From: Flavobacterium sp. 102
Lineage (GTDB): Bacteria; Bacteroidota; Bacteroidia; Flavobacteriales; Flavobacteriaceae
Reading direction: 5' to 3'
Length of the DNA: 64,000 bases
Assembly (NCBI RefSeq): GCF_003634615.1
Contig: NZ_RBKX01000001.1
Location: 2,232,001 to 2,296,000, forward strand
The notes beneath the pieces were generated by a model. It saw only the letters and a program-made list of their open reading frames with translations, was not told the DNA's origin and did no database searches. A program made the position numbers and the translations under genes. Every line of letters begins with the position of its first letter. The stretch's first letter is position 1. Of this stretch, positions 4,723-61,288 are shown one piece after another.

Positions 4723-5379
4723 ATGAAATTTTTTATTGACACGGCCAACTTAAACGAAATCAGAGAAGCACAAGGACTTGGCGTTCTTGATGGCGTAACG
4801 ACTAATCCGTCATTGATGGCTAAAGAAGGAATCACCGGAAAAAACAACATCTTAAAACACTACGTTGACATTTGCAACATTGTTGATGGCGATGTAAGTG
4901 CTGAAGTAATCGCGACCGATTATGATGGTATGATCAAAGAAGGAGAAGAATTAGCCGATTTACACGAGCAAATCGTGGTAAAATTGCCAATGACCAAAGA
5001 CGGTGTAAGAGCTTGTAAATATTTCTCAGACAAAGGCGTTAAAACCAATGTAACTTTAGTATTCTCTGCAGGTCAGGCTTTATTGGCTGCCAAAGCCGGA
5101 GCGACTTATGTATCACCATTCTTAGGAAGATTGGATGATATTTCTACAGACGGTTTGGCTTTGATTCAAGAGATTCGTGATATTTATGACAACTACGCTT
5201 TTGAAACACAAATCTTAGCGGCTTCTATTCGTCACACCATGCACGTGGTAAACTGTGCTAAAATTGGTGCCGACGTAATGACCGGACCATTATCATCCAT
5301 CACAGGATTATTAAAACACCCTTTAACCGATTTAGGTTTGGCTCAGTTCTTAGCCGATTACGCTAAAGGAAACCAATAA
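4723..5379 (+). CDS. tal: Transaldolase, Fsa/TalC subfamily
   Basis: 218 residues, a single TIM barrel. The N-terminus [16 protein letters not shown] and the DGVTTNPSL motif are diagnostic, and the Schiff-base lysine is K87 in VVKLPMT. The position that is Tyr in fructose-6-phosphate aldolase (APY...) is Phe133 here (SPFLGRLDD), which fits true transaldolase rather than Fsa activity. It transfers dihydroxyacetone between sedoheptulose-7-P/glyceraldehyde-3-P and erythrose-4-P/fructose-6-P in the non-oxidative pentose phosphate pathway. A structured leader precedes it and a strong terminator follows. Confidence 0.9.
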
Positions 5380-5385
5380 TCAATA

Positions 5386-5420
5386 GTGTTCAGTGTTCAG
5401 TATTCAGTGAGCAGTTGAAC
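5386..5420. repeat. Heptad tandem array (GTGTTCA family), 5 units
   Basis: Five consecutive 7-bp units in exact register (GTGTTCA, GTGTTCA, GTATTCA, GTGAGCA, GTTGAAC) between the tal stop and its terminator. The mirror-image array of the same family lies at 5467-5498. Confidence 0.85.
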
Positions 5421-5430
5421 CATAACCATA

Positions 5431-5466
5431 AAAAAAGCGTCCCGATTTTTTCGGGACGCTTTTTTT
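5431..5466. terminator. Bidirectional intrinsic terminator
   Basis: AAAGCGTCCCGA pairs with TCGGGACGCTTT around TTTTT, with A and T runs on both sides, between convergent genes. Confidence 0.9.
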
Positions 5467-5498
5467 AACTGACCACTGACCACTGCCAACTGACCACT
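5467..5498. repeat. Heptad tandem array (CTGACCA family), inverted partner
   Basis: GACCACT, GACCACT, GCCAACT, GACCACT in register, running up to the stop codon of the minus-strand gene at 5500. It is the inverted counterpart of the array at 5386-5420 on the other side of the terminator. Confidence 0.85.
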
Positions 5499-11512: not shown

Positions 11513-11675
11513 GTTTTTCTTTATTTATTGATGTTGATTAAGCTTGCTACTAATGTTTTGATAAGTATTAAAAATACCCAGCCTATTCCAAATATAAATA
11601 ATCCCCACCAATCCCTTTCATTTCTTGTAAAATAAATCCCCTTATCGGGTTTTTTAGGTTTTTGGTCGGGAGTGA

Positions 11676-11724
11676 GGGAAAAGGGAAAAGGGAAAAGGGA
11701 AGAGGGAAGAGGGATAAGGGAAAA
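11676..11724. repeat. GGGAAAA heptad array, 7 units
   Basis: Seven units in register: GGGAAAA three times, GGGAAGA twice, GGGATAA, GGGAAAA. Confidence 0.9.
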
Positions 11725-11735
11725 GCTTTCTTAGT

Positions 11736-11945: not shown

Positions 11946-11999
11946 GGAGGGCTTGGAAATGCTGGAAAGTTGGTTTTTTGAGGAAATTGAGAGGAATGA

Positions 12000-12210
12000 G
12001 GGAAAAGGGATATGGGAAAAGGGATAAGGGATAAGGGAAAAGGGATATGGGAAAAGGGAAAAGGGAAAAGGGAAAAGGGATAAGGGATAAGGGATAAGGG
12101 ATAAGGGAAAAGGGAAAAGGGAAAAGGGAAAAGGGAAAAGAGAAAAGGGGAAAAGAGAAAAGGGAAAAGGGAAAAGGGAAAAGGAAAAAGGGAAAAGGAA
12201 AAAGGGATAA
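12000..12210. repeat. GGGAAAA/GGGATAA/GGGATAT heptad array, about 30 units
   Basis: About 211 bp of near-continuous heptads. The three variants are interspersed rather than grouped, and a few 8-mers occur near 12135-12200. This is the longest array in the window. Confidence 0.92.
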
Positions 12211-12431: not shown

Positions 12432-12452
12432 AAGGGATTCGAGCGGTAGCGG

Positions 12453-12775
12453 GCGCAATGAACGCAAAGGTTTCTGTTATCAACCAAACCAACTGACCAC
12501 TGACTACTGAACACTAAAAACTTAACCGCAAAGCACGCAAAGAAGGCGCAATGAACGCAAAGGTTTCTGTTATCAACCAAACTAACTGACCACTGACTAC
12601 TGATCACTAAAAACTTAACCGCAAAGCACGCAAAGAAGGCGCAATGAACGCAAAGGTTTCTGTTATCAACCAAACTAACTGACCACTGACCACTAAAAAC
12701 TTAACCGCAAAGCACGCAAAGAAGGCGCAATGAACGCAAAGGTTTCTGTTATCAACCAAACTAACTGACCACTAA
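12453..12775. repeat. 93-bp tandem repeat, about 3.5 copies
   Basis: GCGCAATGAACGCAAAGG recurs at 12453, 12546, 12639 and 12725, giving periods of 93, 93 and 86. The short copy lacks exactly one 7-bp CTGACTA-type unit. Each copy contains a heptad stretch (CTGACCA, CTGACTA, CTGAACA) and a CGCAAAG-rich stretch. A diverged copy of the same text lies at 15219-15315. Confidence 0.9.
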
Positions 12776-15218: not shown

Positions 15219-15350
15219 ACAAAGCTTCTCGGTTTAAACTAAACCAACTGACCACTGGCCACTAAAAATTTAACCACAAAGAACGCAAAGAAGGCGCAAA
15301 GAACACAAAGTTTCTGTTGTCCGTTGTCCGTTGTCTGTTGTCTGTTGTCA
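15219..15350. repeat. Diverged 93-bp repeat copy followed by five GTTGTCC heptads
   Basis: 15238-15310 repeats the AAACCAACTGACC...CGCAAAGAAGGCGCAAAG text of 12453-12775. Then GTTGTCC, GTTGTCC, GTTGTCT, GTTGTCT, GTTGTCA run in exact register from 15316 to 15350. Confidence 0.85.
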
Positions 15351-15565
15351 GAAAATCTGAATATCAGAAAATCTCTGTGAAGCTCAATAATCTCTGTGAA
15401 TCTCTGTGTAACATATTTAACAGCAAAGCATCTCGGTTATAAACCAAACCAACCGACTACTGACAAACGGCTCTCGATTAGCTGCGCTCAATTTGGCTAA
15501 AGCCTCGGGTCATTTTTTGTTCCGTTGCACTCCACAAAGAACACTCGAACTGACGAACCTTGTAA

Positions 15566-15600
15566 CTTACAACCGACAACCGACAACCCACAACTTACAA
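15566..15600. repeat. CCGACAA heptad array, 5 units, before pyrR
   Basis: CTTACAA, CCGACAA, CCGACAA, CCCACAA, CTTACAA in exact register, directly followed by CTAATTTG at the pyrR promoter. Confidence 0.88.
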
Positions 15601-15604
15601 CTAA

Positions 15605-39767: not shown

Positions 39768-39932
39768 GATGATTGAATTTAATTGATTGTTCTATCAAAG
39801 TTAAACAAAAAAAGTAAAGATTTTTATGAAAGCTACTTATTTCATTATCAGATGTTTTACGTTGGTTTTGTCTGAGTTTTTTGAAGTTACTCAGATTGCC
39901 GGTTTTTATAAACGAAACATTATTTTTTGTTG

Positions 39933-39940
39933 TAATTTTG
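39933..39940 (+). promoter_or_regulatory. -7 promoter element of pabB
   Basis: TAATTTTG, full match, 20 bp before the TTG start at 39961. It lies inside the longer possible frame from 39826 and rules that frame's start out. Confidence 0.55.
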
Positions 39941-39960
39941 ATTTCTTTAAAAAGCACTCC

Positions 39961-41247
39961 TTGAGAACCATAATTTCTAAAAAAAATGTCCCAACCGATA
40001 CTTTCAAAAACCAATTATTGGCTTGGTCGCAACAATTCAGTCAAGTAGTTTTTTTGGATTCCAATGCCTATCAACAAAAGTATTCTAGTTATGACTGTGT
40101 TGTAGCTCTTGATGCTTTTACATCCATAAAAACAGACTATCACAATGCTTTTGAAGATTTAAAACAGTACCAACAACAAACCAAAGATTGGCTTTTCGGC
40201 TATTTGTCTTATGACCTGAAAAATGATACTGAAGTCTTAGAATCTAACAATTTTGACGGTTTAGATTTTCCCGATTTGTTTTTCTTCCAACCTAAGAAAT
40301 TATTTTTGCTCAAAGGAGATCAATTGGAGATTCATTATCTGCGAATGTGTGATGATGAAATAGATTCTGATTTAGAAGAAATCGAGACTTACAGACAACC
40401 GACAACCGACAACCGGCAACCCAAAATAGAACAGCGGATTTCAAAGGAAAACTACCTCGTCAAAGTCACTGAAATTCTCAACCACATTCACCGCGGTGAT
40501 ATTTATGAAGCGAATTTTTGCATGGAGTTTTATGCCGAAAAAGCCAAAATTAACCCTTTAGAAATTTACCAAAAACTCAACAGTATTTCAAAACCGCCAT
40601 TTGCTGCTTATTTTAAAAACAACCATCAGTATTTGCTTTGCGCTTCGCCTGAACGCTATTTGAGAAAAGAAAGAAACAAAGTTATTTCCCAGCCGATAAA
40701 AGGTACGGCCAAGCGTTATACCGACGAAGTTTCAGACCAAAAAGCAAAAACCGATTTAGCCGAAAATCCAAAGGAACGATCGGAAAATATCATGATTGTC
40801 GATTTAGTCCGAAACGATTTGTCGCATACGGCTACTAAAGGTTCTGTTGAAGTAGAAGAACTTTGCGGGATTTATTCTTTTGAGCAAGTCCATCAAATGA
40901 TTTCAACAGTAGTTTCGACCGTGGAGGATTCGATTTCGCCTGTAGAAATTCTGCGAACAACTTTCCCTATGGGAAGCATGACCGGCGCACCCAAAATTTC
41001 CGCTATGAAAATCATTGAAGATTTGGAAGATACCAAACGAGGTTTGTACAGCGGCGCCGTTGGTTATTTTACACCAAACAATGATTTCGATTTCAATGTT
41101 GTCATTCGAAGTATTTTATACAATACCCAAAACGAGTATTTGTCTTTTTCTGTTGGAAGCGCTATTACGTCACAAGCTATTCCTGAGTTAGAATATGAAG
41201 AGTGTTTGTTGAAAGCGAAAGCCATGTTCGAAGTGTTGAAATATTAG
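39961..41247 (+). CDS. pabB: Aminodeoxychorismate synthase component I (PabB/TrpE family)
   Basis: 428 residues from TTG 39961. The frame could start at ATG 39826, but the first 45 residues (IIRCFTLVLSEF...) look non-coding and contain a -7 box. From LRTIISKKN the chorismate-binding enzyme is intact: FAAYFKNNHQYLLCASPERYL, PIKGTAKR, ENIMIVDLVRNDLSH, TTFPMGSMTGAPK and YSGAVGYF. It makes aminodeoxychorismate (folate pathway) from chorismate and glutamine-derived ammonia. A GACAACC heptad array interrupts the inter-domain linker (40394-40421) without breaking the frame. Ends inside the left inverted repeat of the next cassette. Confidence 0.82.
   Translation: MRTIISKKNVPTDTFKNQLLAWSQQFSQVVFLDSNAYQQKYSSYDCVVALDAFTSIKTDYHNAFEDLKQYQQQTKDWLFGYLSYDLKNDTEVLESNNFDGLDFPDLFFFQPKKLFLLKGDQLEIHYLRMCDDEIDSDLEEIETYRQPTTDNRQPKIEQRISKENYLVKVTEILNHIHRGDIYEANFCMEFYAEKAKINPLEIYQKLNSISKPPFAAYFKNNHQYLLCASPERYLRKERNKVISQPIKGTAKRYTDEVSDQKAKTDLAENPKERSENIMIVDLVRNDLSHTATKGSVEVEELCGIYSFEQVHQMISTVVSTVEDSISPVEILRTTFPMGSMTGAPKISAMKIIEDLEDTKRGLYSGAVGYFTPNNDFDFNVVIRSILYNTQNEYLSFSVGSAITSQAIPELEYEECLLKAKAMFEVLKY
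40394..40421. repeat. GACAACC heptad array inside pabB, 4 units
   Basis: GACAACC, GACAACC, GACAACC, GGCAACC in register, encoding a TTDNRQP-like linker. It is the same family as the intergenic CCGACAA array at 15566-15600. Confidence 0.88.
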
Positions 41248-41271
41248 GGATTAGCGAAAAGGGATAAGTTA
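41246..41271. repeat. Left inverted repeat of the four-helix-bundle cassette
   Basis: 26 bp of GGGATTAG/GAAAAGGGATAAGTTA type. It matches the reverse complement of 41643-41668 in 25 of 26 positions (mismatch at 41255) and contains the pabB stop codon. Confidence 0.9.
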
Positions 41272-41291
41272 AAAGTTTTAAATGTAGAGAT

Positions 41292-41645
41292 ATGACAAGT
41301 TATAGAGATTTGATTGTTTGGCAAAAATCAATGAGTTTGGTAACGCTGATTTATAAATTAGTTCTTCAGTTACCTGAAAATGAAAAATACGGATTGACCT
41401 CTCAAATAAAAAGAAGTGCTATTTCGATTCCTTCCAATATTGCGGAAGGTTATGGAAGGAATTATAGAAAAGATTATTCGAGATTTTTACAAATTGCCCG
41501 AGGTTCATTATTTGAAAATCAAACTCAGTTGGAAATTGCAGTTAATTTAGATTTTATAAAAGCTGATGATTTAGAAGAAATTAAAGAGCTATCAATTGAA
41601 GGCGAAAAAATGTTAAATTCGTTAATTAAAAAGCTAGAGGAATAA
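41292..41645 (+). CDS. Four-helix-bundle protein (23S rRNA intervening-sequence / Avd family)
   Basis: 117 residues, the S23/IVP family with its diagnostic motifs: YRDLIVWQKSMSLV at the start, LTSQIKRSAISIPSNIAEGYGR in the middle and FLQIARGSLFENQTQLEIA towards the end. Relatives sit in intervening sequences of 23S rRNA genes and as the accessory protein Avd of diversity-generating retroelements, where they bind nucleic acid as pentamers. No rRNA or reverse transcriptase is nearby. The gene is flanked by 26-bp inverted repeats, and its TAA lies in the right one. Biochemical role unknown. Confidence 0.9.
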   Translation: MTSYRDLIVWQKSMSLVTLIYKLVLQLPENEKYGLTSQIKRSAISIPSNIAEGYGRNYRKDYSRFLQIARGSLFENQTQLEIAVNLDFIKADDLEEIKELSIEGEKMLNSLIKKLEE

Positions 41646-41668
41646 CTTATCCCTTTTCCCTAATCCCT
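41643..41668. repeat. Right inverted repeat of the four-helix-bundle cassette
   Basis: Inverted match to 41246-41271. The 25 bp from 41647 to 41671 are identical to 55612-55636. Confidence 0.9.
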
Positions 41669-41681
41669 TTTGACTTAAAAT

Positions 41682-42992
41682 ATGTTTGAGCAATTCCAAA
41701 ACCACATCAATACGAATCTTCCGTTTCTTAATGGGAAGAAATTGCTATTAGCCACTAGCGGCGGCATTGATAGCATGGTTTTGGTAAATCTTTGTCATCA
41801 ATCTAAACTTGATTTTGCGGTAGCGCATTGTAATTTTCAATTGCGTGGCGAAGAAAGCGATGAGGATGAAAACTTCGTCAAAAATCAAATAGAAAAATTA
41901 CAATTTCCAATATTCATTCAAAGATTCGACACCAAGGCTTTTGCCGAACAAAATAAACTTTCGATTCAAGTTGTCGCGCGAAACCTTCGTTATGAGTGGT
42001 TTTATACGCTTTTGGCCAACCATAATTTCGATTATATCCTAACAGCACATCATCTCGATGACAGTTTGGAAACCTTTTTAATCAACTTTACGCGTGGTTC
42101 AGGTTTAGACGGTTTGACCGGCATTCCGGAACAAAATGATAAGATTGTTCGACCTTTATTAGCCTTTTCCAGAAAGGAAATTGAAGCTTTCGCCAAAGAA
42201 AATCAAATCGCTTGGCGTGAAGACAGCAGCAATGCTTCGGATAAATATTTGCGAAACAAATTGCGTCACGACGTGATTCCGATACTGAAAGAACTGAACC
42301 CGAGTTTGCTGTCGTCTTTTGAAAATACGATTAGTCATTTGAAACAAAGTCAATCTTTGGCACAAGACGCAGCTAAGAATTTGTACCAAAAAGTTGTCAG
42401 TGAAGAAGAACATCATACGGTTATCGACTTACTCAAGTTGCTCAAATACCGAAATTACAAAGCCTATTTGTTCGATTGGTTGCAACCTTTTGGCTTTGCC
42501 GATTGGACTTCGGTTTATGAGTTAATCAATACACAATCCGGAAAGCAAGTCTTGTCCGAAACCCATATACTATTGAAAAACAGAGATTCCTTATTGTTAT
42601 TTCCAAAACAAAATATTGTAAGTGATGAAGTGTTTTGGGTGCAGAAAGAACAATCCGAAGTTAAAATTCCCTTAAAACTTGACTTTTGTAACGTAAGTGA
42701 CATTTCACTTCAATCAACTAATACTATCTTTGTCGATGAAGATTTGTTGCAGTTTCCTTTGACCATTCGCCGTTGGCAAGAAGGTGATTTTTTTCAACCT
42801 TTTGGGATGACCGGGAAAAAGAAATTGAGCAAGTATTTCAAAGATGAAAAGTTCTCTTTATTGGAAAAAAGCAATGTTTGGCTACTCTGTTCCGATGATA
42901 AAATTGTTTGGATAGTAGGGAAAAGACAAGATGAACGGTTCAAGGTAACAGCAACAACAACTAAAATTTTAAAAATCAATTACACCAACTAA
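41682..42992 (+). CDS. tilS: tRNA(Ile)-lysidine synthetase
   Basis: 436 residues. N-type ATP pyrophosphatase loop TSGGIDS at 25-31, followed by HCNFQLRGEESDEDE and the conserved TAHHLDDSLETFLINFTRGSGLDGLTGI. The C-terminal TilS domains are present (TIRRWQEGDFFQPFGMTGKKKLSKYFKDEKFS). It lysidinylates C34 of tRNA-Ile(CAU), giving AUA decoding, and is essential in most bacteria. Its stop and the dsbD start overlap by one base (TAATG), showing translational coupling. Starts just after the right inverted repeat. Confidence 0.95.
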   Translation: MFEQFQNHINTNLPFLNGKKLLLATSGGIDSMVLVNLCHQSKLDFAVAHCNFQLRGEESDEDENFVKNQIEKLQFPIFIQRFDTKAFAEQNKLSIQVVARNLRYEWFYTLLANHNFDYILTAHHLDDSLETFLINFTRGSGLDGLTGIPEQNDKIVRPLLAFSRKEIEAFAKENQIAWREDSSNASDKYLRNKLRHDVIPILKELNPSLLSSFENTISHLKQSQSLAQDAAKNLYQKVVSEEEHHTVIDLLKLLKYRNYKAYLFDWLQPFGFADWTSVYELINTQSGKQVLSETHILLKNRDSLLLFPKQNIVSDEVFWVQKEQSEVKIPLKLDFCNVSDISLQSTNTIFVDEDLLQFPLTIRRWQEGDFFQPFGMTGKKKLSKYFKDEKFSLLEKSNVWLLCSDDKIVWIVGKRQDERFKVTATTTKILKINYTN

Positions 42993-55544: not shown

Positions 55545-55636
55545 AAAAGGAAAAAGGGATAAGGGAAAAGCATGATTTGCTATTATAAAGTAATTTTGCG
55601 GTTTACTTTTCTTATCCCTTTTCCCTAATCCCTTTT
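55545..55636. repeat. Gene-less inverted GGGAAAA/GGGATAA pair (hairpin with ~35-nt loop)
   Basis: The left arm 55545-55570 and the right arm 55606-55636 are inverted copies of the GGGATAA family with a loop of 35 nt and no gene. Positions 55612-55636 are identical to 41647-41671, the right end of the four-helix-bundle cassette. Confidence 0.85.
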
Positions 55637-61203: not shown

Positions 61204-61213
61204 GCATTTTATA

Positions 61214-61288
61214 AGTTATGAGTTATGAGTTATGAGTTAGGAGTTGTTTTCTGAATTCATAACTCATAATTTATAATTCATTAACTCA
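61214..61288. repeat. AGTTATG heptads with inverted AATTCAT partner (hairpin)
   Basis: AGTTATG three times, AGTTAGG, AGTTG (61214-61246), a short loop, then AATTCAT, AACTCAT, AATTTAT, AATTCAT, TAACTCA (61254-61288). The two halves are inverted. The hutG stop codon lies in the last unit. Confidence 0.82.

Follow-up and report, generated by a model that had tools for sequence, protein, structure and literature searches.

The 64-kb window analysed here, a stretch of 64,000 nucleotides from the single-contig, 3.8-Mb genome of Flavobacterium sp. 102, carries a small gene (41292–41645) between the reading frames of pabB (39826–41247) and tilS (41682–42992), both of which are named as given or from recognised motifs, without a family model. 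Its product matches the S23 intervening sequence protein family well above the cut-offs of two models (PF05635, 135.5 bits versus 33.8; TIGR02436, 133.2 bits versus 24), and we refer to it as an S23 gene. Two inverted arms of 26 nucleotides enclose it (41246–41271 and 41643–41668), with 371 nucleotides between them and 25/26 identity (96% complementary). A first-pass annotation, made from the sequence alone, had described these arms and had placed a stop codon in each; both points were confirmed, since the left arm takes in the final two bases of the pabB stop codon and the right arm opens with the TAA stop of the S23 gene (Table 1). In the predicted RNA fold of 41230–41690, both arms pair as one terminal stem with the gene in the loop, as had been proposed, and the fold energy of −102.2 kcal/mol was equalled by none of 100 shuffles (−84.6 ± 5.1 kcal/mol; z = −3.4). 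Assignment of the arms to a heptad repeat family also holds: with up to three mismatches, a 21-mer core of the arm occurs 29 times in the window and not once in 100 shuffles. A chance origin of the bracket is rejected by these two sets of shuffles and by the comparison with control ORFs described below.

The annotation had further placed the protein in an S23/Avd family. The S23 part of this assignment stands, while the relation to Avd of diversity-generating retroelements is one of remote homology (bAvd, 24.1 bits, E = 5e-5; PHROG Avd, E = 1.3e-7), with scores below both curated cut-offs (24.1 versus 40 bits; 22.7 versus 80 bits). A likeness of the S23 family to Avd is noted in passages of PMC10053308.

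Table 1 Features of the pabB–tilS cassette, arm units of resident S23 genes and gene-less arrays in the window
Feature	Position	Strand	Remarks
Left (upstream) arm, G-rich inverted heptad-type repeat	41246..41271	+	Start inside the pabB stop codon
S23/IVP four-helix-bundle gene, 117 aa	41292..41645	+	PF05635, TIGR02436; homologous solved chains 2gsc, 2rld
Right (downstream) arm, C-rich TTATCCC-type units	41643..41671	+	26-nt core 41643–41668; opens with the TAA stop of the gene
TTATCCC, arm unit of the 41292 gene			Flanks read in own genome
TAACTCA, arm unit of own S23 locus L016			Flanks read
ACTGAAC, arm unit of own S23 locus L014			Flanks read
ATTATCC, arm unit of own S23 locus L015			Flanks read
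TTCAACA, arm unit of own S23 locus L018			Flanks read
Gene-less inverted ACTGAAC/ACTGACC heptads around a terminator-like hairpin	5385..5492	.	Unit matches own L014 arms
Gene-less heptad array, AGGGAAA units	11675..11725	.	Best match among the ten own S23 genes is the 41292 arms
Gene-less heptad array, ~30 copies, AGGGAAA/AGGGATA	11999..12205	.	Family of the 41292 arms
Gene-less inverted GTTGTCC/ACAACCG heptads	15316..15602	.	219-nt loop, no listed ORF of at least 100 aa; unit matches own L017 arms
Gene-less heptad array, ATAAGGG/AGGGAAA	16188..16253	.	Family of the 41292 arms
GACAACC heptads within the pabB reading frame	40394..40421	+	Unit matches own L017 arms
Gene-less inverted TTATCCC-type hairpin	55552..55636	.	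Arms 55552–55570, 55618–55636
Gene-less inverted TTATGAG/AACTCAT heptads	61209..61287	.	Unit matches own L016 arms

Ten PF05635 genes are present in the own genome, most of them flanked by inverted arrays of 7–8-nt units that are usually specific to the locus, with weak brackets at two loci (L010 and L012, scores 15 and 14). The two arms of one locus match, although the unit changes between genes: across 39 loci, the own arm pair scored 23.6 on average versus 13.2 for mispaired arms, and the own partner was strictly the best in 18, while in several of the remaining cases, judged by eye, the unit was common to a locus of another species. Because the arm unit is a repeat family of its own genome, the proper null is the frequency of such repeats around random genes. 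We therefore scored 126 S23 ORFs and 705 other ORFs from same-genus loci (124 and 671 scorable), and an inverted-repeat score of at least 20 was reached by 86/124 S23 genes versus 32/671 other ORFs of the same loci. A stricter test used composition-matched shuffles and control ORFs whose nearest S23 gene is over 400 nt away (n = 449), with a bracket called at the 1-in-100 level (own score reached in at most 1 of 100 shuffles); here the threshold was reached by 100/124 S23 genes versus 19/449 controls. A repeat found around any gene is thereby rejected as an explanation, and the equal abundance around random genes that the annotation had named as evidence against its own reading was looked for and was absent.

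The bracket is more general than that annotation supposed, since the layout crosses phyla. In a wider sample of 108 loci (107 scorable), made up of 28 loci from the same phylum and 80 named loci that are the best 80 of at least 586 confirmed in a scan requiring the motif S[IV][PS][ST]NIAEG, the same threshold was reached by 79/107 S23 genes, and own arms scored 20.9 versus 11.2 for mispaired ones. The named loci come from KSB1, Nitrospirae, Acidobacteria, Planctomycetes, Clostridia, Campylobacteraceae and others, including many Flavobacteriia. Family members without flanking repeats, the other result that the annotation had named as evidence against its reading, do occur but form a minority, with 24/124 same-genus and 28/107 wider-sample genes missing the threshold. 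Most arms have a period of 7, 8 or 14–15. PF05635 was present in 60/61 genus genomes searched, at 1–16 copies per genome among those 60, and in 116/148 genomes of the phylum.

Arm polarity is fixed, with the G-rich arm upstream and the C-rich arm downstream of the S23 gene: C exceeded G in the downstream arm in 82 cases versus 7 (6 ties of 95) in the same genus and in 66 versus 3 (3 ties of 72) in the wider sample. Gene-less hairpins had the same polarity in 14/14 cases, these being a selected set rather than the result of a blind scan. Among control ORFs scoring at least 18, the lean was reversed (C exceeded G downstream in 16 and G exceeded C in 35), which probably reflects the many that neighbour an S23 gene and have one of its arms in common. 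We dropped the idea that the asymmetry indicates transcription sense, as such a hairpin reads alike on both strands. Where both neighbours lie within 600 nt, S23 genes are flanked on both sides by same-strand genes in 104/111 cases versus 234/390 for controls, a placement compatible with a transcript-level role.

The alternative that survives best, although we consider it unlikely, is an RNA-level intervening sequence that is transcribed in the operon, folded into a stem and excised by RNase III as in 23S rRNA. Both the stable predicted terminal stem of 41230–41690 and the same-strand seat accord with it, as does a Coxiella element in which an S23 ORF goes with a stem of 28 bp and with excision by RNase III (excerpts of PMC4990558). 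The annotation had likened the locus to S23-encoding intervening sequences of 23S rRNA, and in anatomy the analogy is sound: the S23/IVP protein family is the same, the element is ~400 nt long, and the inverted ends form a long stem, predicted here, with the gene in the loop. The cassette differs in its seat between two protein genes, as had been recognised, rather than in a 23S rRNA helix, and in ends that are tandem short-repeat arrays with gene-less relatives; such arrays, where they have no partner arm, could not form a stem of this kind. Arms held similar by RNA pairing should also carry more G.U-type than A.C-type mismatches, and no such excess was found (48 versus 58; 44 versus 44). Arm likeness therefore looks copied rather than maintained via RNA pairing, and the test lends no support to RNase III excision of the 41292 cassette.

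Orthologous junctions speak to mobility. Thirty pabB–tilS loci were fetched, including the own one (28 with a readable pabB end), and the S23 gene with TTATCCC-type arms was found in 4/30 (own genome, G023, G009 and G032), so that pabB–tilS junctions without it, proposed earlier as something to look for, do exist; at least 10/30 have a spacer of only 7–49 nt. Unrelated longer inserts, with spacers of 510–920 nt, occupy the junction in L062 and L070–L072. The arms are kept in both copies whose S23 gene has decayed, by an inner stop in G009 and by a frameshift (by eye) in G032. Concerted evolution was not apparent among the four copies at this junction, where the own-arm match was not clearly above the cross-species match. 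At gmk–nadD, read by eye in 30 loci (L278–L307), 7 contain an S23 cassette, 6 a gene-less heptad hairpin (the own genome among them) and 6 a gene-less 9–10-mer hairpin, with short or unrelated spacers in the others. Empty orthologous junctions, variable copy number, decayed copies and gene-less relatives of the arms indirectly support mobility; for the S23 cassette, neither a transposition event nor an intermediate or target-site duplication was observed. The earlier suggestion of a mobile or RNA-processed cassette is accordingly divided, with a recurrent element whose mobility is indirectly indicated by its absence from orthologous junctions on one side and RNA processing, to which the G.U test lends no support, on the other. 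In Arthrospira, two four helix bundle genes occur as a strain-specific pair, and the best match of one of them is in Chloroflexi (excerpts of PMC8700078), which fits horizontal arrival.

Gene-less arrays related to the arms of several resident S23 genes occur throughout the window (Table 1). The array at 11999–12205 is far longer than the 26-nt arms of the 41292 cassette. The hairpin inside 5385–5492, identified by eye, consists of GCGTCCCG/CGGGACGC and a T run and lies downstream of the ORF 4723–5379. A 93-bp tandem repeat of 3.5 copies at 12452–12773 combines CGCAAAGAA-type units with ACTGACC heptads, which gives the impression of a joint arrival of both repeat systems followed by amplification. 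Heptads may also enter coding linkers, as in the pabB cases; TTTTCCC heptads lie inside the pabB match coordinates in G009 and G011.

To compare genomes, one detector for period 7–8 arrays was applied to all samples. The own genome gave 18 arrays in 400 kb, to which the 64-kb window added 9, and 20 S23-rich genomes gave 17 in 371 kb; no array was detected in the 784 kb sampled from 20 genomes that lack a PF05635 match. The sum is 44 arrays in 835 kb of S23-bearing DNA, unevenly spread, versus 0 in 784 kb. One same-genus genome (180 kb) and two same-family genomes (280 kb) are in the S23-less set, the rest being of differing lineage. The difference has p = 2e-13 if arrays are counted as independent; they cluster, however, with 9/17 S23-rich arrays in one stretch and 14/20 such stretches without any. 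Counted by stretch, at least one array was present in 11/20 from the own genome, 6/20 from S23-rich genomes and 0/20 from S23-less genomes (6/20 versus 0/20, p = 0.02).

The arrays are also tied to the particular S23 genes resident with them. Arms of the ten own genes matched 0.622 of the length of the 27 own arrays, compared with 0.424 when ten S23 genes were drawn at random from other genomes (0/2000 such sets reached 0.622); individually, 24/27 arrays exceeded the typical random set and 3/27 did not. The complete S23 set of another genome (G036) matched the own arrays at 0.546, own arms being better for 19 and worse for 7 (p = 0.002), and the ACTGAAC and TAACTCA unit families are common to both genomes (G000, the own genome, and G036). 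An inverted partner within 300 nt was detected for only 8/27 own gene-less arrays at p ≤ 0.02. For other genomes, whose S23 sets are incomplete, the array–arm match was weak (p = 0.056 for the 30 testable among 39 distal arrays, 4 of them individually at p ≤ 0.05). Exact counts of TTWTCCCTTWTCCC in the four genomes with a pabB–tilS cassette were 59 (G000), 40 (G009), 3 (G023) and 0 (G032), the last having a decayed cassette yet no copy, versus no more than 5 in each of 57 other genomes (p = 4.5e-4), in which S23 loci outside our sample could carry such arms. Read backwards, TTWTCCCTTWTCCC occurs 23 times in G000 and 20 times in G009, which gives no independent null there because a long TTTTCCC array contains it too. 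A comparison of S23 protein similarity with arm similarity gave no clear sign of overall coevolution (Mantel rho = 0.04, reached by 51/300 permutations), and reciprocal arm BLAST, with at most 40 candidates scored per genome, was weak or led nowhere.

Bracketing is not exclusive to S23 genes, since loci of PF13366 (PDDEXK_3), which we take to be the GxxExxY family, likewise lie between short repeats in inverted orientation, whose units are mostly 9–10 nt long (CTTTGYG, ATCYGYG). Among 30 such loci (L308–L337), 29 were scorable, averaging 24.5 versus 14.3 for mispaired arms, and 20/29 scored at least 20. Several protein–repeat pairs of like logic may exist.

This second family is one of the observations behind a further reading, which we regard as quite improbable: S23 genes would be passive passengers that land or persist between arrays generated by slippage or another agent and paired in inverted orientation. 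Many arrays do stand without a gene, and heptamers have been attributed to polymerase slippage, as reported in parts of PMC4679880. Set against this are the 784 kb of S23-less sequence, partly from one genome of the same genus, in which no period 7–8 array was detected, the rarity of brackets around control genes and the match of array units to resident S23 genes. Least probable of the three is a host regulator, in which an oligomeric RNA-binding S23 protein would read 7–8-nt repeats in its own operon mRNA and gene-less repeats would be regulatory targets rather than parasites: the unit length, the same-strand seat, the five chains in both solved relatives (one unit per subunit being conceivable) and the gene-less gmk–nadD hairpins in several species are compatible with it, but the repeat type varies between species at one junction and is absent in others, S23 genes have decayed in G009 and G032, and both the long array at 11999–12205 and the in-frame arrays look non-regulatory.

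On balance, we lean towards a selfish cassette of wide distribution, of which the 41292 unit would be one copy: an S23 gene ended by inverted arrays of 7–8-nt units that drives the spread of itself and of gene-less arms. Under this selfish-cassette model, the arms of a cassette, as hairpins of DNA or RNA, would be recognised by its own S23 oligomer, which would promote copying or insertion of the cassette through host enzymes; it would do the same in trans for gene-less arms, a role also proposed for RAYT transposases towards REPs. Drift of the unit would then be accompanied by slippage and template switching in the hairpin, which would preserve the likeness of the two arms. Catalysis is the least supported step, as family scans of the 41292–41645 protein named no nuclease or transposase domain and its Pfam matches were PF05635 and a weak bAvd match. 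The solved relatives, 2gsc (XCC0516, presumably a Xanthomonas locus tag) and 2rld, each have five chains per entry, and by a conjecture of our own, one repeat unit might be read by each S23 subunit.

By analogy, the cassette and its gene-less arrays resemble a RAYT/REPIN master–satellite system. RAYTs and REPs are described, in passages of PMC2817692, as a gene between inverted repeats with dispersed gene-less copies and an abundance correlated with the cognate gene. Like this IS200/IS605-related system, S23 genes lie between two inverted repeat copies, gene-less copies are dispersed in the genome and repeat abundance goes with presence of the cognate gene, although for S23 the last relation is partly weak or uneven. 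Unlike RAYTs, the S23 protein belongs to PF05635 and is not a Y1/HUH tyrosine transposase, so the cassette is not a RAYT; its ends are tandem arrays of 7–8-nt units rather than single palindromes, and the units vary from locus to locus. For overall gene–repeat coevolution, the comparison of S23 proteins and arms gave no clear signal. A selfish character also has a precedent within the family, since excerpts of PMC4990558 call S23-bearing rRNA intervening sequences selfish and already hypothesise mobility with a role for the ORF.

Short tandem repeats of comparable form have been described before. In Xanthomonas, GGGAATC heptads form inverted pairs with convergent arrays in 70 (Xcc) and 75 (Xac) cases (parts of PMC4692102); these share with S23 cassettes the heptad arrays and a convergent orientation like the arm polarity, but were studied as G-quadruplex-forming repeats, and the terms S23, four helix and transposase are absent from the main text of that article. 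TAACTGA heptamers of Beggiatoaceae, Cyanobacteria and Bacteroidetes are likewise 7-nt tandem units and mostly intergenic, with a gene-rearrangement role suggested in Bacteroidetes (parts of PMC4679880); they differ in being described as direct repeats of unknown origin, and the term S23 is absent from the main text. Excerpts of PMC4990558 name the S23p of X. campestris. In the portions of the literature on S23/GxxExxY genes and on heptamer repeats that we consulted, no description of an S23–array association was recognised. Inverted heptad pairs are already known from Xanthomonas, and the tie to the S23 gene family may be the new part. Because Xanthomonas has an S23 protein (XCC0516), the model predicts that this gene is bracketed by GGGAATC heptads. 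The clustering of arrays weakens, and the Xanthomonas heptad report strengthens, the same step of the model.

A broader version is more speculative, and we hold it only tentatively. S23/IVP proteins would be drivers of an unrecognised class of mobile elements without a conventional transposase, in which a pentamer would read one 7–8-nt unit per subunit in its own hairpin arms, act on the transcript or its single-stranded DNA and spread both cassettes and gene-less satellites. Such elements would be the source of heptanucleotide repeats across phyla, including the Xanthomonas GGGAATC pairs, with GxxExxY genes as a parallel 9–10-mer version and rRNA intervening sequences as the S23 branch that survives in 23S rRNA.

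The family models matched by the S23 gene give only 'intervening sequence protein', 'four helix bundle' or 'hypothetical' as its function, and the link to inverted heptad arrays gives PF05635 a context. Two questions become testable, namely the role of stand-alone S23 proteins and the origin of heptanucleotide repeats, which a 2015 paper still called a class without detailed literature (parts of PMC4692102). Should S23 proteins move or amplify these repeats, they would form a mobile system in which no transposase is recognised, one that connects the Avd fold with rRNA intervening sequences and with cassettes seated between protein genes. The recurrence of this layout around most of the relatives examined, in very different bacteria, suggests an overlooked hopping DNA unit and a possible source of scattered seven-letter repeats.
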